Assembly: GCA_029261595.1 (NCBI GenBank)
Contig: JAJDAZ010000041.1
Coordinates: forward strand, 1-64,000
From: Nitrospinaceae bacterium
Lineage (GTDB): Bacteria; Nitrospinota; Nitrospinia; Nitrospinales; VA-1
Length of the DNA stretch: 64,000 bases
Direction: 5' to 3'
Shown: piece by piece, positions 45,505-60,286 of the stretch
How positions within the stretch are numbered: position 1 is the stretch's first letter
Layout: each line of letters starts with the position of its first letter
The notes under the pieces: model-generated
The model's database searches: none
The model's input: the letters and a program-made list of their open reading frames with translations, nothing else
What the model was told of the DNA's origin: nothing
Made by a program: the position numbers and the translations under genes

Positions 45505-45777
45505 TTATCGGATAAAAAACTTGTCCATCGACTTCGGAGGAACCGGGGTTTCATTGATCCGGGTCACCTCCGCCTGAGGCGGCCCCTGCCGGCACCATTT
45601 AACGAATTCATCCAAATGAGCGCGGTCGCCTTCGACATGAATCTCCACGGTTCCGTCCGGGCAATTCTTGGCCCAACCGGTAAGGCCCCGTTCGGTGGCG
45701 AAGGACTGAGCGCTACCCCTGTACCAAACCCCCTGAACCCGTCCATGCACAACAATATGAACCGCTTCAATACCCAT
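45505..45777 (-). CDS. acyP: Acylphosphatase
   Basis: The ORF track extends to 45873, but the conserved domain starts at the ATG at 45777 (MGIEAVHIVVHGRVQGVWYRG), giving 90 residues, the normal length. The catalytic arginine is in VQGVWYRGS and the catalytic asparagine in LTGWAKNCPDGTVEIHVEG. It hydrolyses acyl phosphates such as acetyl phosphate and carbamoyl phosphate. It lies 6 bp before the ABC ATPase gene and 10 bp after the small unknown gene, so all three are one transcript. No cysteine-motif or frame oddity affects the domain. Confidence 0.94.
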   Translation of the reverse strand: MGIEAVHIVVHGRVQGVWYRGSAQSFATERGLTGWAKNCPDGTVEIHVEGDRAHLDEFVKWCRQGPPQAEVTRINETPVPPKSMDKFFIR

Positions 45778-45787
45778 CAAACTGAAT

Positions 45788-46024
45788 TTATTTTTTATGT
45801 TTCGGTTTCTCGAACAAATGCTGGATTTCCCGGTAAACCCCAAATATGGACCCGTCACTGATTTTGGGCCCAAATTTTCCCAGATCCCGCATAATGCGCT
45901 GAAATTCCGAGGTGCTCCCGGAAAATTTTTCTATCAAGGGGCCAAAATAGGCTTGCTCGTCGGGATCGAGCCGATCCAAAATAATGCGAAGACGAGCTTT
46001 CAGGGGTTCGAAATCTTTTTCCAT
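45788..46024 (-). CDS. Small helical protein of unknown function
   Basis: This 78-residue, charged protein is not recognised. It looks entirely helical (MEKDFEPLKARLRIILDRLDPDEQAYFGPLIEKF, then FQRIMRDLGKF) and ends in a basic tail (EKPKHKK). It lacks a signal peptide. It is the first gene of a minus-strand set with acyP and the ABC ATPase, 10 bp apart, which supports it as real. GGATATGG-like sequence lies just before its ATG. Confidence 0.6.
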   Translation of the reverse strand: MEKDFEPLKARLRIILDRLDPDEQAYFGPLIEKFSGSTSEFQRIMRDLGKFGPKISDGSIFGVYREIQHLFEKPKHKK

Positions 46025-46179
46025 ATCCTTTCTATACTAGCCCCACCCTAAGTTATTTTCAAGCCTGCAACGGAATGGTTTCCCTGGTCTTATCCCAAGG
46101 CTTGGAAAACCAACCCTCTTCAAAAAACCTGGAACCCCACAACCCGGTTCTTCTGCCAGGAAAGTCATGCCCTCCTTGT

Positions 46180-46493
46180 GCTCTTCTGATTAGATTTTAT
46201 TCGGAAGAATCAGTTTATCAAAGGTTTTACCTTAGATTATTCCCAAAAATACCCTAATTATCATGTGCAAAGACATTTAAACTAAGATAAAACAACACTT
46301 ATACCGAATATAAATATATAGGAATTATTGCAATTCCCAGGTTATCCCTTTACACTGAATTATCGGAAGAAACAATAATCCATTTATTTTCAAATGGTTA
46401 AAGACACTGAAATCCGCCAGCAATTCGATACTTTCATATTGGATAACCGAAAATGGACTCTCACCTTATTAATAATTCACTAAACCAACAGCC
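46180..46493 (+). promoter_or_regulatory. Conserved leader of TonB receptor 1
   Basis: About 310 nt before the receptor are colinear with the region before the second receptor. Shared blocks include TTCTGAT-AGATTT-ATTCG, GTTTATCAA-GGTTTT, AATATAA-TATAT followed by TTATTGCAA, and TTTA-ACTGAAT. The block with TATAA probably contains a promoter. No known riboswitch motif was recognised. The preceding 46025-46180 has no gene. Confidence 0.6.
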
Positions 46494-48560
46494 ATGAAAA
46501 CAAAATCCCTCCTCACTCTGCCTGAAAAGCCCTCGTTCGATGTTTGGAAATTAATTTGTATCTTCCTGGTGGTCTTGTTTTATTTGCATGGAAACGCTGA
46601 GGGAAATAATCAGACCGAACAAAATCCATTAAACTTGGCGGACCTCAGCTTGGAAGAACTGATGGACATCAAAGTCACATCAGTCTCCAAAAAGGAACAG
46701 ACGCTTTCACAGGCGGCGGCGGCTATTTTTGTTATCACGCAGGAGGATATTCGCCGCTCAGGGGTGACCACCATTCCAGAAGCGTTGCGCATGGCCCCAG
46801 GTGTGGAAGTCGCGCAGGTGGATGCCAACAAATGGGCCATCACCATACGCGGGTTCAACAACCTGTTCGCTAGCAAGCTGTTGGTGATGATTGACGGCCG
46901 GACCATCTACACGCCTTTATTCTCCGGGGTTTACTGGGATGTGCAGGACACGGTACTGGAAGACATCGACCGTATCGAGGTGATCCGCGGACCTGGAGGA
47001 ACCCTGTGGGGCGCCAACGCCGTTAACGGAGTCATCAACATCATCACCAAAAACGCCAAGGATACCCAGGGCGGCATGGTCACCGCCGGTGGAGGAACAT
47101 TAGAGAATGGCTTCGGCAGTATCCGTTACGGCGGCAAATTGGGGGAAGGGGATAAGGCTCATTACCGTGTATTCGCCAAGTATTTCAACCGCGATTCGTT
47201 CGATGAAGCCGCCGGCGCCGATGGCGCCGATGAATGGGAAGCAATTCGCGGCGGATTCCGTATGGATTTAACGCCTTCGGAAAATAACTCCTGGACGGTT
47301 CAGGGTGATTATTATGATGGGGAATCCGGCCAAAGGGTGAGCGAAGTGACTTCGTTGACCGCGCCCTTCTTAACCACCACAGACGATGACGTCCATGTGA
47401 AAGGCACCAACCTGCTGGCCCGCTGGAAACATTCCATTTCGGAGCAGTCCAGCACCACGCTTCAGGTTTATTACGACCGGGCGGAACGCGATGCAAAACC
47501 TCTCAAACAGACCATCGACACGTTTGATATGGATTTCCATCACCAATTTGGTATGGGCGAGCGCCATGACATCATCTGGGGAATTGGACAACGCTTTGTA
47601 TATGACGATATTGAGAACACGCTCGCTTTCTCATTTGCCCCCGACAACCGCCTGGCCCATACAACCAGCGCTTTTATTCAGGATGACATCACCCTTATCG
47701 AAAACAGGCTCCGTTTGACCCTGGGTTCCAAATTCGAGTGGAACTCATATACGGAGTTTGAATATCAGCCCAATGCCCGTGTTTTGTGGACCCCACACCC
47801 CAATCACTCGGTTTGGGCCTCGGTTTCGCGGGCGGTGAGAACTCCGGCGCGAACGGATGACAGTTTCCGTCTCAATTTCCTGGCAGTCCCCGGCTTTGGG
47901 CTCAATAGTCTTTTTACTATATTCGGTAATAATAATTTAAAATCCGAAGACCTCGTGGCCTACGAACTGGGCTATCGTTTGCAACCGAACGAAAAAATTT
48001 TCCTGGATATAGCCACGTACTTTCATTCCTATGATGATCTTGTATCTCAGGAACCTATAACCCCCTTTACCGAAACCACTCCGGCGCCGACCCATCTGGT
48101 AATTGCCACCCAATTCCAAAATAAGCTGTCCGGAAAAGCGTATGGCGTGGAAATCGCCGGAAAGTGGAAAGTTTTTGACTGGTGGGAGTTAAATACCGCC
48201 TTCAACTGGTTTCAATTTGACCTGGATCAAACCCCTCCTAGCGCAGACACCACTACTAAGTTAGATGACGGAAACAGCCCAAAATATCAGTTCAACATCC
48301 GCTCCCACCTCAAACTCCCATATCACCTGGAACTGGATACGGCATTGTTTGTCACTGACGAGCTCGACAACCTGCGAATTCCCAGTTACAACCGGCTGGA
48401 CGCCCGCATTGGCTGGCTACCCACGGAAACCCTGGAAATGAGCCTGGTGTTTCAAAACCTGACGGACCCACGGCATAAGGAATTTGGCGGCAGTGAAGGA
48501 GGGTCTGTGAGAAATGAAGTTCCGCGTAGTGTCTATGGAAAGGTGGTCTGGAAATTTTGA
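46494..48560 (+). CDS. TonB-dependent outer-membrane receptor 1
   Basis: The protein has 688 residues. After a signal peptide (about 19-37, WKLICIFLVVLFYLHGNAEG) comes DLSLEELMDIKVTSVSKKEQ, which likely includes the TonB-interaction segment. The plug domain (about 70-185) includes VITQEDIRRSG, APGVEVAQVD, RGFNNLFASKLLVMIDGR, IEVIRGPGGTLWGANAVNGVINIITK. The beta-barrel follows and ends in the aromatic VYGKVVWKF. The substrate is not evident. Its neighbour at 48986 is a paralogue with nearly the same N-terminus, and both share a leader. No TonB-ExbB-ExbD genes are in the window. Confidence 0.92.
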   Translation: MKTKSLLTLPEKPSFDVWKLICIFLVVLFYLHGNAEGNNQTEQNPLNLADLSLEELMDIKVTSVSKKEQTLSQAAAAIFVITQEDIRRSGVTTIPEALRMAPGVEVAQVDANKWAITIRGFNNLFASKLLVMIDGRTIYTPLFSGVYWDVQDTVLEDIDRIEVIRGPGGTLWGANAVNGVINIITKNAKDTQGGMVTAGGGTLENGFGSIRYGGKLGEGDKAHYRVFAKYFNRDSFDEAAGADGADEWEAIRGGFRMDLTPSENNSWTVQGDYYDGESGQRVSEVTSLTAPFLTTTDDDVHVKGTNLLARWKHSISEQSSTTLQVYYDRAERDAKPLKQTIDTFDMDFHHQFGMGERHDIIWGIGQRFVYDDIENTLAFSFAPDNRLAHTTSAFIQDDITLIENRLRLTLGSKFEWNSYTEFEYQPNARVLWTPHPNHSVWASVSRAVRTPARTDDSFRLNFLAVPGFGLNSLFTIFGNNNLKSEDLVAYELGYRLQPNEKIFLDIATYFHSYDDLVSQEPITPFTETTPAPTHLVIATQFQNKLSGKAYGVEIAGKWKVFDWWELNTAFNWFQFDLDQTPPSADTTTKLDDGNSPKYQFNIRSHLKLPYHLELDTALFVTDELDNLRIPSYNRLDARIGWLPTETLEMSLVFQNLTDPRHKEFGGSEGGSVRNEVPRSVYGKVVWKF

Positions 48561-48689
48561 CCGCGTCCGCAATATTTTAATCGCTGACGTGGATTCTTTT
48601 CTGACTAAAAGGTATTCAGAGAATTTGTTCTTTTCTTCTGAGCTTTTCTGGCCGAGAAAAGTTTGCCGTCTGCTTTCCTCAATAATGGC

Positions 48690-48985
48690 TTTCTGATGAG
48701 ATTTCATTCGAAAGTAACGGTTTATCAAGGGTTTTCCATAGAGCCCTCTTTCACATACCATATTCTTCATGAGCAAGGCATCTAACTTCATATAAAACAA
48801 TCATTAAACCCAATATAATTATATGGAAATTATTGCAAATCGCTGACCTTCCATTTATACTGAATCATATAAAATACTTTATTTCAAATAGTTATGATCG
48901 GGAACCTTCCTGTTCCAAGGAGCCGGGGAATGCCTATCGGAAAACCGAATATCGTCTTTCATCTCATTAACAATGTACTAAACAA
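48690..48985 (+). promoter_or_regulatory. Conserved leader of TonB receptor 2
   Basis: This is the second copy of the conserved upstream region. It shares TTCTGATGAGATTTCATTCG, GTTTATCAAGGGTTTTCC, AATATAATTATATGG and ATTATTGCAAAT, TTTATACTGAATCAT, then TATTTCAAATAGTTA, in the same order as the first copy. TATAAT near 48814 may be a -10. A direct sigma-54 site is not present because the GG-GC spacing is 8 instead of 10. 48561-48689 shows no gene. Confidence 0.6.
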
Positions 48986-51061
48986 ATGGTCATTAAAAAA
49001 AAATTTCTCCTCACCCTGTCTGAAAAGCTCTCACTCGATTTTTGGAAATTAATGTGTATTTCCATGGTGGCCTCGTTTTATTTAAATGGAAACGCTGAAG
49101 GAAAAGAGCAGGATGAACAAATTCCCATAAATTTGGCGGACCTCAGCTTGGAAGAACTGATGGACATCAAAGTCACCTCGGTGGCAAAAAAGGAACAGAA
49201 GCTCTCACAAGCGGCCGCGGCGATTCATGTGATCACCCAGGAAGACATCCGTCGTTCGGGGATGAACAGTATTCCGGAACTTTTACGCACGGTTCCGGGA
49301 TTGCAGGTGGCTAAATTCGATTCAAATACCTGGGCCATCTCGGCCCGCGGATTCAATTTTCGTTTTGCCAGCAAACTTTTGGTGTTGATCGACGGTCGGT
49401 CCATATACACACCCGTTTTTTCAGGGATCAACTGGGACGATCACGATCTGCCTTTGGAAGACATTGAACGCATTGAAGTCATACGAGGTCCGGGAGGCAC
49501 CTTGTGGGGAGCAAATGCCGTCAATGGCGTGATCAATATCATCACCAAGCACACCGAAGACACCCAGGGAGGTCTGGTTAGCGGGGGGGCGGGGACCGAA
49601 GAAAAAGGATTCACCACGATTCGCTATGGCGGCAAAATCAGCGAAGATGCTAAATATCGCGTGTATGGAAAATATTTCAACCGGGATGAATCGGTCACAC
49701 GAACCGGTGGCTCTGGAAACGATGATTGGCATGCCACTCGCGGAGGGTTTCGCGTTGATTGGAAGGCATCGGAAAAAAACTCTCTGATGTTTACCGGAGA
49801 TTATTTCGAGGGAGAATCGAATTTTAGGGTTCGCAATCAAGTGAAATCTTTAACCGCTCCTTTTGCGGCCAGTTTCAATACGACCGCTGAAGTTGATGGC
49901 GCTCACTTTCTCACCAAGTGGAAACGTCAACTTTCTGCGAATTCGGATTTGGCTCTTCAAGTCTATTACAATCGGGAAAGGCGAAGGAGCCGCTTCATTC
50001 CACAATTGTTAGAGGATACGTTCGACATTGATTTTCAGCACCACTTTAAATTAAATGACCGGAACAAAATCTTTTGGGGATTGGGACAGCGTTTTGTTTA
50101 TGATTCTTTAGAAGGTAATTTGGGTTTTTCATTCAGCCCGAAATACCGGCTCAACCACCGTTCCAGCCTTTTTGTTCAAGATGAAATCACCATCGTCCCC
50201 GACCAAGTCCGTTTGACCTTAGGGTCGAAGTTCGAAGAAAATTCCTACACCGGGTTTGAGATTCAGCCCAGCGCGCGAATATTATGGACCCCAAATGAAA
50301 ATCATTCAATTTGGGCCGCTGTTTCTCGAGCCGTAAGAACTCCGTCCCGCACTGAGGATACGGGCCGTATCAATGTCACTGCATCAGCAGGCCCGGTTTT
50401 ACTCACCAAATTTGGTTCCAACGATTATGGGTCCGAAGAGCTTCTTGCCCTGGAGTTGGGTTACAGAGGCCAGCTCAGGAAAGATTTTTATTTCGACATA
50501 GCCACGTTTGCGCACGTTTACGAAAACCTACTCACTCAGGAGAGACAATCTCCATTTGTAGAAACAACCCCGGCGCCCGCCCATACAGTCGTTCCGTTTG
50601 TCGTTGACAATCTGGGTTCGGGAGAAATATTTGGAGTGGAGCTATTCGCCAACTGGAAACCAATAAACTGGTGGACTTTGAAAGGTGGGCTGACCTTTTT
50701 GGCAGTCGATTTCCATTTGAATGCCGCAAGTACGGACACAGCCTTGATTCAATCGGAAGATAACGATCCCAATGTTCAGTGGCAATTGCACTCGCATATG
50801 GATTTGCCGCACCAATTGGAACTCGATACGGCGCTGTATTACGTTGACGAGCTGGAAAACCTCAATGTACCCGATTACACCCGGCTGGATATAAGGCTGG
50901 GCTGGCATCCCACCGATGAAGTTGAATTGAGCCTCGTCGGTCAAAATCTGACGGACCCAGAACACCCGGAGTTTGGCAATTCCATACTTTCAACCGGGAC
51001 GGCCACTCAAGTGGAACGCTCTGTTTATGGGAAAGTCACCTGGAAATTTGGCGAGAAATGA
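48986..51061 (+). CDS. TonB-dependent outer-membrane receptor 2 (paralogue)
   Basis: The protein has 691 residues and the same layout as receptor 1: signal peptide (FWKLMCISMVASFYLNGNAEG), DLSLEELMDIKVTSVAKKEQ, plug domain with RRSGMNSIPELLRTVPGLQVAKF, RGFNFRFASKLLVLIDGR, and the barrel ending in VYGKVTWKF plus GEK. The N-terminal 150 residues are almost identical to receptor 1, while the barrel strands and loops differ more. This suggests duplication followed by divergence in ligand-binding loops. It lies 425 bp after receptor 1 with its own leader. The YfiR gene follows after 83 bp. Confidence 0.92.
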   Translation: MVIKKKFLLTLSEKLSLDFWKLMCISMVASFYLNGNAEGKEQDEQIPINLADLSLEELMDIKVTSVAKKEQKLSQAAAAIHVITQEDIRRSGMNSIPELLRTVPGLQVAKFDSNTWAISARGFNFRFASKLLVLIDGRSIYTPVFSGINWDDHDLPLEDIERIEVIRGPGGTLWGANAVNGVINIITKHTEDTQGGLVSGGAGTEEKGFTTIRYGGKISEDAKYRVYGKYFNRDESVTRTGGSGNDDWHATRGGFRVDWKASEKNSLMFTGDYFEGESNFRVRNQVKSLTAPFAASFNTTAEVDGAHFLTKWKRQLSANSDLALQVYYNRERRRSRFIPQLLEDTFDIDFQHHFKLNDRNKIFWGLGQRFVYDSLEGNLGFSFSPKYRLNHRSSLFVQDEITIVPDQVRLTLGSKFEENSYTGFEIQPSARILWTPNENHSIWAAVSRAVRTPSRTEDTGRINVTASAGPVLLTKFGSNDYGSEELLALELGYRGQLRKDFYFDIATFAHVYENLLTQERQSPFVETTPAPAHTVVPFVVDNLGSGEIFGVELFANWKPINWWTLKGGLTFLAVDFHLNAASTDTALIQSEDNDPNVQWQLHSHMDLPHQLELDTALYYVDELENLNVPDYTRLDIRLGWHPTDEVELSLVGQNLTDPEHPEFGNSILSTGTATQVERSVYGKVTWKFGEK

Positions 51062-51143
51062 ATCAAATGATAATCAGGCTTTTCCCTATAATGAAGAAAT
51101 CAGACATAAAGTCAAAAATCGCGGAACCTACACGGAACCTGTC

Positions 51144-51713
51144 TTGATAAAAAAGCTAAATAAAATTTTAATCGTCGCCTTTGTTTCATTATGGGCCCAT
51201 TTGATGACGCCATCGGATTCCTCTGGTGCGGCTCCTATGGAATATCAGGTCAAGGCGGCTTTTATATATAAGTTTATCAATTTCATCGAGTGGCCTGCCA
51301 AGGCATGGAAAAATGCCGAGGATACGCTGGTGATCGGTGTCTTAGGAGAAAACCCTATTTTAGAGGCTCTCCATTCCCTTCCCCTAAATAAAGTTCAGAA
51401 CCGCCAGATAAAAATTAAACGCATAAAAAACCTTCAGGATTTAAAGTCCACTCATATCGTTTTTATCGATGAATCAGAAAAGCCCGATTTGAAAAATATT
51501 TTGGACCATTTGAAGGAAACATGGGTTTTAACGATCAGCGACACTAAAGAATTTGCAAAAATGGGCGGCATGATTAATTTTTTCCTCGACAATGAAAAAA
51601 TCCGGTTTGAAATGAACCCCGAGGCCGCAGAAGAAGCAGAATTAAAAATCAGCTCCAAAATATTGAGACTGGCTACGATTGTTAAGACCCAACGTTCCTC
51701 CGAGGCAAATTAA
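51144..51713 (+). CDS. YfiR/DUF4154-family periplasmic protein
   Basis: The track ORF starts inside the receptor (50973). I place the start at the TTG at 51144, which opens a clear signal peptide ([19 protein letters not shown]), giving 189 residues. The domain starts [20 protein letters not shown], the YfiR signature, and ends near [11 protein letters not shown]. In Pseudomonas, YfiR is a periplasmic repressor of the diguanylate cyclase YfiN. There is no cysteine in the mature protein, so the disulfide switch known for YfiR is absent. The stop is one base before the kinase start, so the pair is tightly coupled. Confidence 0.88.
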
Positions 51714-51714
51714 A

Positions 51715-53670
51715 ATGCACTTTCTTAAAAATGTTTCTATCAAGCATAAGTTGACCTGGATCATCATGGTCACAACGGGGGTGGCATTATTAATTGCGTG
51801 TACAGCTTTTGTGTTTTATCAGTTTGCTCAATACCGTTCCTCCATGGTTAAGGAAATGTTGAGTCTGGCAGAAATTATCGAAACCAACAGCGCCGCTCCT
51901 CTGGAGTTTAATGATCCTAAGGCGGGAAAAGAAACCCTGGAAGCATTGAGGGCCGACCCTCGAATCATGGCGGCAAAAATTTATAACCAAAAGGGAGAAG
52001 TATTCACTTCCTATCGAAGCCAGAGAATTGATAAATTGTCCGGAAAAGAAAACTCTCTTTTGGATGGTGAATATTGGGAAAATGGAGAATTATCTATAAT
52101 TAAAGCTCTAACCCATGACAATAAACGAATTGGAACGATTTACATCCATTCTCGCTTAAGCGAAATGAACGCAGAGCTGAGAAAGTATGGAATCATCATC
52201 GGCTTTGTTCTTCTGGGCTCTTCTCTGGTGGCTTTCCTGTTATCTTCATGGCTTCAGAAAATGGTATCCCAACCGATTCTTCATTTGGCGCAAACGGCGG
52301 ACCGTGTGTCACAGGATAAGGACTTTTCTCTGAGAGCCTCAAAAGCAAGTCAGGATGAAGTGGGACACCTTATCGGTCGATTCAACGAAATGCTATCGCA
52401 AATTCAAGATCGGGACCTGGAACTTCTGAAGGCTTATGATGTGCTTGAAGAACGGGTCAAAGAGCGGACTCACGAATTATCCCGTGCCAAAGAACAGGCG
52501 GAAAAGGCCAACCAGGCCAAATCTGAGTTTCTTTCCCGCATGAGCCATGAATTGCGCACACCCATGAACGCGATTTTGGGCTTTGGCCAGCTTCTGGATT
52601 ACGATAGCAATGAACCGCTGACCAATTCCCAGAAAACCAAGGTAACTGAAATTCTGAAAGCGGGAAATCATCTGCTGAAATTGATCAATGAAGTTCTGGA
52701 CCTTTCTCACGTGGAATCCGGTCTATTGAACCTGTCCGTTGAAGATTTTCCTCTGATGAGTGTGCTTGACGAGGCGCTCACTTTGATCGGTCCGATGGCC
52801 GAGAAACGAAATATCCAGATCATCAATCATCTGTCCAGTCACCCGGAGCTCAGTCTTAGAGCCGATCCTACGCGGGTCAAACAAGTATTGCTGAACCTGC
52901 TTTCAAATGCCGTTAAATATAATAAGGAAGGTGGCTCCATCACTTTGAGTTTTCAGAAAAGTGATGAATACAAGATACGCATCGATATCACCGATACCGG
53001 TGAGGGCATTTCAGAAGACAACCTGAAGCAATTGTTTCAGCCGTTCAACCGGCTGGATGCCGAAAATTCGGCTGTGGAGGGAACAGGAATCGGGCTCATT
53101 ATCACAAAACGCCTGATCGAAATGATGAAGGGGACAATCTCCGTTGACAGCGTTTCCGGAGAGGGCAGTCGGTTTTCGATCGAAATCCCGGCGGGTAAAC
53201 AAGTGGCTCCGGCACAAGATAACCGGGTAATCAACCCTGTACGTAAAGGATCTGGAAAAATGAATGAACAAAAATATACAGTGCTTTATGTGGAAGATAA
53301 TGCAGCTAATTTGTTGCTGATCGAACAGATTCTTCTATCGAGATCGGATATCAATCTGCTTTCCGCATCACGAGCCCGATTGGGAATCGATCTGGCCCGA
53401 GCCCACAAACCGGACCTGATTCTCATGGATATCAACATGCCGGAAATGGACGGCATGACGGCAATGAAAAAACTACAGGACTACGAAGAAACCTGCAACA
53501 TTCCAGTCATCGCGGTCACTGCAAATGCCATGGAGGCTGATATCAAAAAAGGGCTGGATGCTGGATTCAAAGGGTATATTACAAAACCATTTAATATTCC
53601 AAAGCTCTTTATGGAGATTGACCGTTTCCTGAAACTTGAAAATTCAACTTTAGTTGACTCTACCCAATAA
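51715..53670 (+). CDS. CHASE8-HAMP hybrid histidine kinase
   Basis: Starting at the ATG at 51715, the protein has 651 residues. Membrane segments at about 12-38 and 157-177 enclose a periplasmic CHASE8-like domain ([22 protein letters not shown]), as in YfiN. HAMP (about 178-230), a coiled segment, HisKA with H278 (RMSHELRTP), HATPase with NAVKYN, DTGEGIS and GTGIGL, and a C-terminal receiver (about 520-640, [13 protein letters not shown]) follow. It differs from YfiN in having a kinase instead of a GGDEF output. YfiR encoded directly upstream probably regulates it through the periplasmic domain. The next gene starts 13 bp later. Confidence 0.9.
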
Positions 53671-53683
53671 ACGGAGAACAATA

Positions 53684-54247
53684 ATGATCGATAACGAACA
53701 AATCCTTGAAGCCAAGATCCTTATAATTGATGATGAACCTGCCAATGTCATGGTGCTTGAAGAAACCCTCAAGCAAAGGGGATATACATCCATAAAAAGC
53801 ATCACCGACCCCAGAGAGGCCCTTGAGTCCTATCAGACTTATAAGCCGGATTTGGTACTACTGGATCTGAATATGCCCCACCTGACCGGGTTTCAGGTAA
53901 TGGACCAGATAAAGGAAGCAGACCCGGCAAGCAAGATTCCCATCATGATACTGACCGCACAAGTCGACCAGGCCACTCGACTGCGATCCCTGGATGCTGG
54001 AGCCCGGGATTTTCTGACAAAACCGTTCGATGTTCTGGAAGTATCACTGAGAATCCAAAACATGCTGGAAATAAGCCTGTTCTACAGTCGAATCCACTCC
54101 GCCAACGCGGATCTGGAAGCAAAATACGAACAGGCGATCATCGACTGCGCGACGACTAAAGGCAAACTGCAAAGAGAAATTTCCCACAGGGAAGAGCTCG
54201 AAAAACAGTTGAAAGATTCTTCCCCGGATATGGGCCGGGTCGGATGA
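53684..54247 (+). CDS. Stand-alone receiver protein with coiled-coil tail
   Basis: The ATG at 53684 has GGAG seven bases upstream, so I prefer it to the track start; this gives 187 residues. The receiver domain (about 12-130) has IIDDEPANV, D61 in LVLLDLNMP, T in MILTAQ and K in DFLTKPF. Residues about 135-180 are a coiled-coil (ANADLEAKYEQ, then TTKGKLQREISHREELEKQLKDSS). No DNA-binding or enzymatic output is present. The tail resembles linkers that normally lead into a PAS or kinase domain, so this could be a shortened receiver-kinase or a phosphorelay intermediate. It is 13 bp after the hybrid kinase gene. Confidence 0.88.
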   Translation: MIDNEQILEAKILIIDDEPANVMVLEETLKQRGYTSIKSITDPREALESYQTYKPDLVLLDLNMPHLTGFQVMDQIKEADPASKIPIMILTAQVDQATRLRSLDAGARDFLTKPFDVLEVSLRIQNMLEISLFYSRIHSANADLEAKYEQAIIDCATTKGKLQREISHREELEKQLKDSSPDMGRVG

Positions 54248-54726: not shown

Positions 54727-57700
54727 ATGAATCTCTCCAACCCAACAAAACCCCGCCAAAACACTTTTTTAGCCACATCCAACAAATATGTACCTGTTCT
54801 CACTCTCCTGATCATTTTTGGAGTGGGCTTCTGGGGTTTCAAGACCTTGCAACAGGACTTTAAAAACGGGCTGGCTAACCAACTTTATGCCGTGCACAAA
54901 AACAGCCTGGAGGCTCTTAAAATTTGGGTGAAAGGAAAACAGGCGTTTGTGGATATATGGGCCAACCACCAGGAGGTTCGTAATAATATTCAATCCATGG
55001 TTCGGCTATCCAAGGAAAAAAAACCGGGGCTCGCAGGAAAACTGCTTCACTCCGATGAACTGCATACTCTCCGGGAAATACTGGCCCCCGTTGCCAAAAG
55101 ACTGGGAATGATCGGATTTGTCGTCGTGGATACGTCGGGTTTCCAAATTGCCGCTTTACTGGACGAACCGATCGGCAAAAGAACCCTTATTACCCGATCG
55201 GACTTTGTTGAGCGATCTCTGGCGGGTGAAACGGTGATTTCGGTTCCCTTCATTGCCGAAGTCGCCTTGCCGGACGTCAACGGGGAGTGGAGAAAAAACT
55301 GGCCGACCATGTTTGTCTCGGCCCCCGTGCGTGACGATGCAGGGAAAATCATCGCTGTGCTCACTTTCCGTATTCGTCCGGAGCTGGATTTTACCCGCAT
55401 TTTAAAAGTGGGCCGTTCAGGAAAAACGGGGGAAACTTACGCTTTTAATTCTTCGGGACAATTTCTCTCTGAAAGCCGTTTTGAATTGGATCTCAGAAAG
55501 ACAGGTCTCTTATCCGGGGACGTTAAAAGACAGTCCATCTTGAATATTGAGGTTCGCAACCCCGGCGGAAACTTATTGAAAGGATTTCAGCCCACTATCC
55601 CAAGGGACCAGCAACCTTTAACAAAGATGGCCGTTCAGGCTATCGCGGGAAAATCCGGAATCGATGTTGACGGATACAATGATTACCGGGGGGTTCCCGT
55701 CTTGGGAGCCTGGACCTGGCTCCCGGACCTTAAGTTTGGGGTGACCACGGAAATGGATTTGGAAGAAGCGCATGCTCCACGACGAAACCTGCTCTTACTA
55801 TTTGGAACGCTCTTCTTAATTTTAGTATTCAGCTGGTATGTATCGATCCGCATTCGCGCGCAGCAACTGAGCGAACAACGCGCCAAAGAACAACTGGGAG
55901 CGTCACTTAAAGAAAGTCACAGCCGTACCGCCTCGATCCTCAATAATACGGTCGATGCAATCATTACCATCGACCATAGAGGAATCATCGACCAATTCAA
56001 CTTCTCGGCCGAAAAAATGTTCGGGTACCGCATTGATGAATTGAAAGGAAAAAACATTTCTATGCTGATGCCTGAACCCTACCGCAGCGAACATGACGGT
56101 TACCTGGCACGGTATATGGCGACAAGAAAAGCCCACATCATTGGCATTGGCCGGGAGGTCACGGGTCTCAGGAAGGACAGCACCACTTTCCCGATAGATC
56201 TTTCAATCAGTGAAGCCTATGCCGAAGAGCGCCGGTTTTTCACGGGAACGGTCCGGGATATCACCAGGAGCAAACAGGAACAAGCTCGAAAAAACATGCA
56301 ACATGGTTTGACCAAAGTCCTGGCGGAATCCCAGTCGATCGACGAGGGAACCATTAAATTTCTGCAAACCCTTGTGGACCATCCCACATGGGATATGGCT
56401 TTTTACTGGTCCGTGGACCCAAAGTCCAACCTTTTGGATTGCAAGCTGGGCGCTCATTCAATGAGGGTTCGCCTGGAAGTCTATCATCATTTTTCCGAAA
56501 GGACTTTTAATACGCAATTTGAAAAAGGCGTGGGTCTGCCTGGAAGGGTTTGGAAAAGCAATCAACCGGCCTGGATAAAAGATGTGACTCAGGATGCCAA
56601 CTTTCCCCGGGCTCAAATGGCGGAAGACATGGGCGTCCATGGTGGATTTGGGTTCCCGATTTTTTCTGAAGGAAAACTCTGGGGCGTGGTGGAGATTTTC
56701 ACCATCGAATCGCCAGATCCCGATGAGGACCTGATCAACCTGCTGGAGAACATGGGCATTCAATTCGGCCAGTTCATGCGACGTATTGAAAGTGAAGTGG
56801 GATTGGCGCAAGCCATCCTCATCTCGGAAGCGGCAAAGAGAGAAGCAGAAGACGCCAACAAAACAAAAAGCGCGTTCCTCGCCAATATGAGCCATGAAAT
56901 TCGCACTCCCCTGAACGCCATTCTGGGATTTTCACAAATTCTGTTGGAAGACCAGAACCTTCAGGGAGAACAACGCCGATCCTTACAAACCATCGACAAG
57001 AGCGGAAAGCATCTTTTGGAATTGATCAATGACATTCTTGATATTTCAAAAATCGAAGCCGGCCACATGGAACTGGTCCTCACCGAATTTGATTTGAATA
57101 AACTGGCTCATGACCTCATTGAAATGTTCAGGGTGCGATGCAACGCAAATGGCTCATCGATCCAAACTCACGGCTTCACGTCAAGCCCCTGCCGGGTGCA
57201 GGGCGATGAAAAAAAATTGCGCCAGATCCTGACCAACCTGCTGGGAAATGCGGTGAAGTTCACCGATGCCGGTGAAATCACCCTGAGCCTGGATATTCTG
57301 GAAAATCACCGTTACCAGTTCACTGTGACGGATACCGGAATAGGAATTCCCCTGAGAGCGCAAGCCAAAATTTTTGAAGCCTTCAGGCAGGATGAGGAAG
57401 GCCGTAAAAAGGGCGGCACTGGACTCGGACTGGCGATCTCCCGAAAGTACCTGCAATTGATGGGGAGCGATTTGAAATTGGTATCGGCTCCCGGGAAAGG
57501 GTCCAGTTTTATTTTTATCCTGCATCTGCAGCCTGCCCATACGGGCACAGAAAACTATTCGACCCCCCATAATAAAGTGGTCGGGCTGGTTCCGGGGCAT
57601 CGTGTGAAAGCTCTGATTTGCGATGACATTGAAGAGAACAGAGAAGTGCTGTCGCAATTTTTGTCAAGCGTTGGCATCGACATACTATTGGCAAAAAACG

Positions 57701-58236
57701 GGCAGGAGGCCATTGAAATGGTCCGCCAGACTCTCCCCGACATTCTCCTTATGGACATTCGGATGGATGGAATGAGCGGGATTGAAGCGAGCCAGCAGAT
57801 CATCGAAGAGTTCGGCAAGGATCGGGTGAAAATCGTTTTGCATTCCGCATCCGTTTTGCAACATGAACAGAAGAAATTTAAAAAAATCGGCTGCCATGAT
57901 TTCATTTTAAAACCCTTCCGCAAGCAAACGGTATTAGATAGCATTCAAAAAGTTCTTGCGATCGAATACGAATATGAAGATACCGCCGAAAAACAGCAGG
58001 ACGATCCCCAGGCCGTGGCTCTGGATTTTTCAAAGTTCAAGCTTCCGCGAAACATCCATTCCCGCTTGCTGGAGGGTGCGGAACTGAGCAACATCACCCA
58101 CCTCGAAAAAACTCTGGCGGAGATTTGTCAATTGAAAGGAAACGAAAAAGAACTGGAACCTTATCTAAAAGAGTATGTCCTGAAATACGATATGGAAGGA
58201 ATTATGACTATTTTGAAACAGGTGACTTATGAGTAA
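54727..58236 (+). CDS. Large hybrid histidine kinase (periplasmic sensor, PAS, GAF, kinase, receiver)
   Basis: The protein has 1169 residues. Membrane segments at about 19-39 and 357-377 flank a periplasmic dCache-like sensor. PAS (about 400-510, [24 protein letters not shown]) and GAF (about 515-690) domains follow. HisKA has H723 ([16 protein letters not shown]); the ATPase domain shows [17 protein letters not shown] and [11 protein letters not shown] receiver has D1010 ([13 protein letters not shown]). The last about 100 residues are helical ([21 protein letters not shown]) and may be a degenerate phosphotransfer-like domain, but no HPt histidine is obvious. The stop overlaps the next gene by 8 bp. 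The signal is unknown. Confidence 0.9.
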
Positions 58237-59680: not shown

Positions 59681-60175
59681 TCACCTTTGCCCTTCTTCGG
59701 GTTGAATCCCGTATTTACTGAAAAATGTTCTGAGGTATCTCTGGGAGGTTCGTATTCCCCGATGGTTCCGTTGCGCAGAATAAATCTGCCGCGCTCTCAA
59801 CATGTGGTGGACGGCGAGGGGACCGTTTTCCAACAAATCATAAGACAGCCCCAGGTTATAATGCGCTTCGGCGAAATCGGGTTGCAACCGCACCGCTTCG
59901 AGATACTCGGCGATTTCCTCCTCATGCCGTCCCAGGGCCATATAAGACAGTCCCAGTTGGAAATGCTTCTTTGGATCCGACGGATCTTTTTTAAGGGACG
60001 CTTTACTTTCCTCAATCTGCTTTAAAACGCTTTCCCTGTATTTCTGGAATCCCGACTCTGCCCCACTGGCCACGGGAAGGGAAACAAAAACGGCTTGCAA
60101 AAATATCACGATGCAAATTAAATGACGCCGGGGATTCATCTTCATTTTTTCCATTAATTTTTTTCTGTTGTGCAA
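59681..60175 (-). CDS. Small exported TPR protein A
   Basis: The protein has 164 residues. A signal peptide (ICIVIFLQAVFVSLPVASGAES) indicates export to the periplasm. Two TPR units follow: KKHFQLGLSYMALGRHEEEIAEYLEAVRLQP and AEAHYNLGLSYDLLENGPLAVHHMLRARQIY. The end has a basic helix (TSQRYLRTFFSKYG). Several ATGs (residues 1, 8, 11, 13) could be the start; one of the inner ones would give a normal signal peptide. It belongs to a set of three similar TPR proteins in the last 5 kb. Binding partner unknown. Confidence 0.8.
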   Translation of the reverse strand: MHNRKKLMEKMKMNPRRHLICIVIFLQAVFVSLPVASGAESGFQKYRESVLKQIEESKASLKKDPSDPKKHFQLGLSYMALGRHEEEIAEYLEAVRLQPDFAEAHYNLGLSYDLLENGPLAVHHMLRARQIYSAQRNHRGIRTSQRYLRTFFSKYGIQPEEGQR

Positions 60176-60286
60176 TCAATGTCATACTAATGCGGTTTTA
60201 CAATCATAACATTTTATAGAATCGCTCACACTGGCGTCCACCGGGTCAATGGATAACGCTGTGAGATCCATTTTCAGGGGGAGAAT

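Follow-up and report, generated by a model that had tools for sequence, protein, structure and literature searches.

The window, a stretch of 64,000 nucleotides from a Nitrospinaceae bacterium, carries two TonB-dependent receptor genes, here called R1 and R2, with genes for a YfiR-like protein, a hybrid histidine kinase and a response regulator behind R2. All of them lie on the forward strand:

46494..48560, forward strand: R1, TonB-dependent receptor (Pfam plug and barrel).
48986..51061, forward strand: R2, TonB-dependent receptor (Pfam; its orthologue in genome G002 of the genus is 81% identical).
50973..51713, forward strand: frame with a YfiR/HmsC-like domain (DUF4154, Pfam); the gene probably begins after the end of R2.
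51679..53670, forward strand: CHASE8-HAMP hybrid histidine kinase (Pfam; C-terminal part 59% identical to the kinase of an operon in genome G003 of the genus).
53654..54247, forward strand: receiver-domain response regulator (Pfam; 68% identical to that of the G003 operon).

By Pfam, the gene content is that of an operon of YfiR, hybrid histidine kinase and response regulator with a TonB-dependent receptor. It is distinguished by the two receptors at its head, whereas G003 has a different small exported-looking protein at the same site. Among the papers searched, none joined TonB-dependent receptor, YfiR, histidine kinase and operon.

An earlier note had described many colinear blocks in about 300 nt of noncoding DNA before both receptors, and this similarity is real. 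The two leaders (46185-46493 for R1 and 48690-48985 for R2) are colinear over ~300 nt with 69-71% identity (69% across 290 aligned columns), and their global alignment score lies at a z of ~16 relative to shuffles. Searched against its own genome, the R1 leader finds the R2 leader as its sole match (73% identity over the first 180 nt, E 2.4e-22); with only two copies in the genome, a repeat or mobile element was rejected. The near-identical blocks singled out previously are present, GTTTATCAA.GGTTTT at 46213-46228 and 48720-48735 and TTATTGCAA ending at 46333 and 48838, but they are not surprising given a uniform identity of ~70%. The longest identical run in the pair is 11, the permutation mean is 13.2, and a run at least as long as that observed has a probability of 0.83, so that blocks of 9-11 nt are simply what is expected at 69% identity over 290 columns. 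Moreover, leader identity is not above third-position identity in the coding sequence that follows. By the criterion of the earlier note, the R1/R2 pair alone thus gives no sign of extra constraint on the leader. Identity to R2 falls to 40-57% in the first half of the transcribed part of the R1 leader, which is its less conserved portion. This leader also contains a 29-codon reading frame (46393-46482), whose start codon is not kept in the R2 leader.

The leaders do align over the ~300 nt first proposed, but this extent is too short, since the similarity continues past the start codons to about codon 74-90. Within the genes, R1-R2 identity is 0.81-0.84 (third positions, 0.67-0.80) until about codon 75-90 and 0.62 afterwards (third positions, 0.30). 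R2 and its G002 orthologue show the opposite trend, with 0.65-0.74 in the first 75 codons and mostly 0.75-0.93 later; this pattern may be partly due to a G002 signal peptide that has evolved faster. A breakpoint scan places the change at codon 74 (dlnL 34.7; informative sites 39 versus 13 to the left and 120 versus 516 to the right, Fisher p 1e-16; third positions alone, p 1e-7), near the start of the plug domain (residue 72, Pfam). The module is made up of an upstream region of ~140 nt, a predicted sigma70-like core promoter, a leader of ~125-135 nt without predicted structure and the first ~74 codons, laid out as follows:

46185..46327, forward strand: R1 promoter upstream region, common to R2 and to the G003 operon at the same site.
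46213..46228, forward strand: block GTTTATCAAAGGTTTT before R1, one of only two exact copies in its own genome.
46328..46356, forward strand: predicted R1 core promoter, TTGCAA-N17-TACACT, with the same spacing in R2, G002 and G003.
46357..46493, forward strand: R1 5' untranslated leader, without predicted structure; transcription would start a few bases past 46356.
46494..46715, forward strand: codons 1-74 of R1, where the module extends into the gene (signal peptide, pre-plug segment), from the breakpoint scan and sliding identity.
48690..48832, forward strand: R2 promoter upstream region, copy of 46185-46327.
48720..48735, forward strand: block GTTTATCAAGGGTTTT before R2.
48833..48861, forward strand: predicted R2 core promoter, TTGCAA-N17-TATACT, with the 17-nt spacer of all four sites.
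48862..48985, forward strand: R2 5' untranslated leader, partly kept in the G002 orthologue.
48986..49213, forward strand: codons 1-76 of R2, where the module extends into the gene, from the breakpoint scan and sliding identity.

Adjacent genes of the same family with similar leaders would ordinarily bring to mind a plain tandem duplication of the entire receptor gene and leader together, with age alone accounting for the retained leader, and near-adjacent receptors of the R1/R2 family also occur in G046, G048 and G041. The receptor bodies, however, make this history very unlikely. They are only 58% identical as proteins, with fourfold sites at 0.39 versus 0.275 by chance, and trees of 19 receptors reject them as sisters (AU p 7e-87), yet the 5' ends are close. 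The R1-R2 distance is 1.09 changes per site for the bodies and 0.27 for codons 1-74. A body grouping of R1, R2 and the G002 orthologue has an AU p of 0.006. In codons 1-74 the same three sequences are close (0.27-0.42), and a pairing of R2 with its orthologue is not rejected (AU p 0.099) in the weak tree of this short segment. Because the bodies are not sisters, the locus has a mosaic 5' module and not a simple gene duplication, which the body trees refute. As far as the sequences themselves go, it can safely be said that R1 and R2 have in common a 5' module far younger than the last ancestor of their bodies. In G002, an R1-like receptor is present only as its C-terminal part (contig C36, L054, 4041-4856; from R1 residue 453, 68% identical), directly ahead of the intact R2 orthologue.

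The module contains a predicted promoter that recurs in other genomes. TTATTGCAA holds the -35 element of a sigma70-like promoter, TTGCAA-N17-TAYACT, and in five genomes of the genus the longer form ATTGCAA-N17-TAYACTRAAT has exact matches at four sites and no others: R1, R2, the R2 orthologue of G002 and the head of the G003 operon. A fifth site differs from it at one position, and the reversed control yields no site. The spacer between the hexamers is 17 nt at all four sites (4/4). The G002 orthologue has the same promoter and spacing, though at another chromosomal place; its leader retains the core promoter and parts of the 5' untranslated stretch but is ~150 nt shorter on the upstream side. 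In its hexamers, TTGCAA and TACACT/TATACT, and in its 17-nt spacer, the element resembles a sigma70-type promoter, but the conserved form is longer than the consensus and restricted to the R1/R2-related gene group within the genus. Shared regulation of the two receptors, suggested previously, is thereby favored in its simplest form, the same sigma70-like promoter and spacer that also recur in G002 and G003, whereas a discrete array of sites is unproven.

Upstream of the promoter, ~140 nt match G003 (69% over 125 nt, E 6e-6), and the match lies at the same chromosomal site as R1, beside acylphosphatase, small-ORF and ABC-transporter genes. The G003 operon behind it begins with a small exported-looking protein, followed by a hybrid kinase and a response regulator, the latter two with the identities to the window listed above, and past the operon stands the same TPR gene (58% identical to window 59693-60181). 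G003 thus has a related operon here, whose head gene differs but whose promoter region has been retained. G001 has no such operon at this site; there the TPR gene comes directly after the small ORF. In the comparison of G000 with G003, identity is 47% at fourfold sites of the ABC gene and 55% (R1) and 61% (R2) in the leaders over ~185-190 columns, an excess that is small and comes partly from the gapped alignment. A profile of the three upstream regions found no further clear member in 46 genomes of the family, and three or four homologous leaders are found in total. The R2 leader has weak matches in other family genomes (E 0.002-0.009), each 22-33 nt long; those inspected (L063-L068) were taken as chance matches in AT-rich DNA.

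The earlier note had proposed that the leaders might form a structured RNA, and a riboswitch or similar element governing translation of both receptors would suit the position and length of the ~125-135 noncoding nt before both start codons. Folding gives this idea no support. On the sense strand, the two leaders, their two upstream parts and the G002 leader all fold with shuffle-level stability (z -0.8 to +1.0), the consensus fold of the three-way upstream alignment has no pairs, and the best Rfam matches of the leaders fall far below gathering scores. Moreover, the portion in common with G003 is mostly upstream of the predicted transcription start, and the transcribed part is the less conserved one. 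We therefore rejected a structured RNA on the folds, the consensus fold and Rfam, and regard it as extremely improbable. On the antisense strand, the R1 upstream region (46185-46330, minus) folds with a z of -2.1 and its R2 copy with +0.9.

Alternatively, selection may keep the leaders alike for an array of binding sites (for example GGTTTATCAA, ATAAAACAA and an AT-rich dyad next to the -35) for one dedicated regulator. The upstream region is recognizable in G003 even though fourfold sites of the ABC gene have fallen so far, ATAAAACAA and TATTGCAA do not vary among the three copies, and the invariant columns of the three-way alignment with G003 show mild clumping (P 0.03), centered on these two blocks; for that alignment only scores (z 13-25) were used, since identities of the shuffled controls are inflated by gaps (0.69). 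Identity within the R1/R2 pair, however, is not clumped beyond chance, the G002 orthologue is without most of the upstream region, and there are no convincing further sites in the genome of the window or in the 46 family genomes. The GTTTATCAA block has 44 two-mismatch sites in its own genome versus 24 in the reversed control, with exact copies solely at R1 and R2, and no clear regulon was found for it there. Its one-mismatch site L106 in the same genome and a look-alike at L064 in another genus are both without the rest of the module. The latter, CGGTTTATCAAAGGTTTTCC (L064 1506-1530, G024), is almost the block of the window and lies ~145 nt before a frame with a signal-peptide-like start; it may be chance. 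An array of regulator sites, as the earlier note had envisaged, does not emerge from these comparisons and is rather unlikely, while individual regulator sites in the upstream region are possible.

We conclude that the two leaders probably represent a single promoter module that was exchanged between old TonB receptor genes that are not sisters, and that both genes are likely under the same control. Ectopic recombination or gene conversion may have joined one segment, with promoter, leader and signal peptide, to two receptor bodies of old origin. R1 and R2 would each have their own copy of the same promoter and should therefore respond to the same control, and the R2 copy would also serve the YfiR, kinase and response-regulator genes downstream of R2. 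The upstream region and promoter are probably an inherited part of the operon head; G003 has them at the corresponding site too, followed by another head gene and by the related kinase and regulator. As in gene conversion or ectopic recombination between paralogues, pairwise identity changes sharply at one point, and the histories on either side probably differ. In contrast to that pattern, the tract here covers promoter, leader and signal peptide only and ends at the start of the plug domain, and identity between the copies has since dropped to about 70-84%. The R1 body is nearest G019 by path and its 5' end groups with R2, which suggests transfer from R2 to R1; against this direction, the site beside R1 is where the upstream region natively belongs. 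A literature search on exchange of receptor 5' ends returned nothing directly relevant, nor did the titles of Nitrospina papers.

An extension of the exchange reading, which we consider quite unlikely, is that the stretch from the promoter through leader and signal peptide to the pre-plug segment acts as an exchangeable 5' cassette at a single sensory-operon site, with different receptor bodies, or the head gene of G003, placed behind it. If so, the input of the operon would change while the promoter, kinase and response regulator stay. The locus shows how, in uncultivated Nitrospinaceae, the head genes of a sensory operon can vary while the promoter region stays, and ATTGCAA-N17-TAYACTRAAT is a specific promoter to seek in transcript data. 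One candidate structured RNA can be removed from the list. Otherwise, the case is one of ordinary genome evolution, the usual outcome of sequence exchange between genes.

The chromosomal site itself, from the acylphosphatase/small-ORF genes (window 45505-46051) to the TPR gene (59693-60181), varies within the genus. The window has the receptors, YfiR and kinases there, G003 a kinase-regulator operon headed by another gene, G002 a relative of that operon, G004 a sensor kinase resembling window 54727-58236, and G001 nothing (loci L077, L075, L076, and L079).
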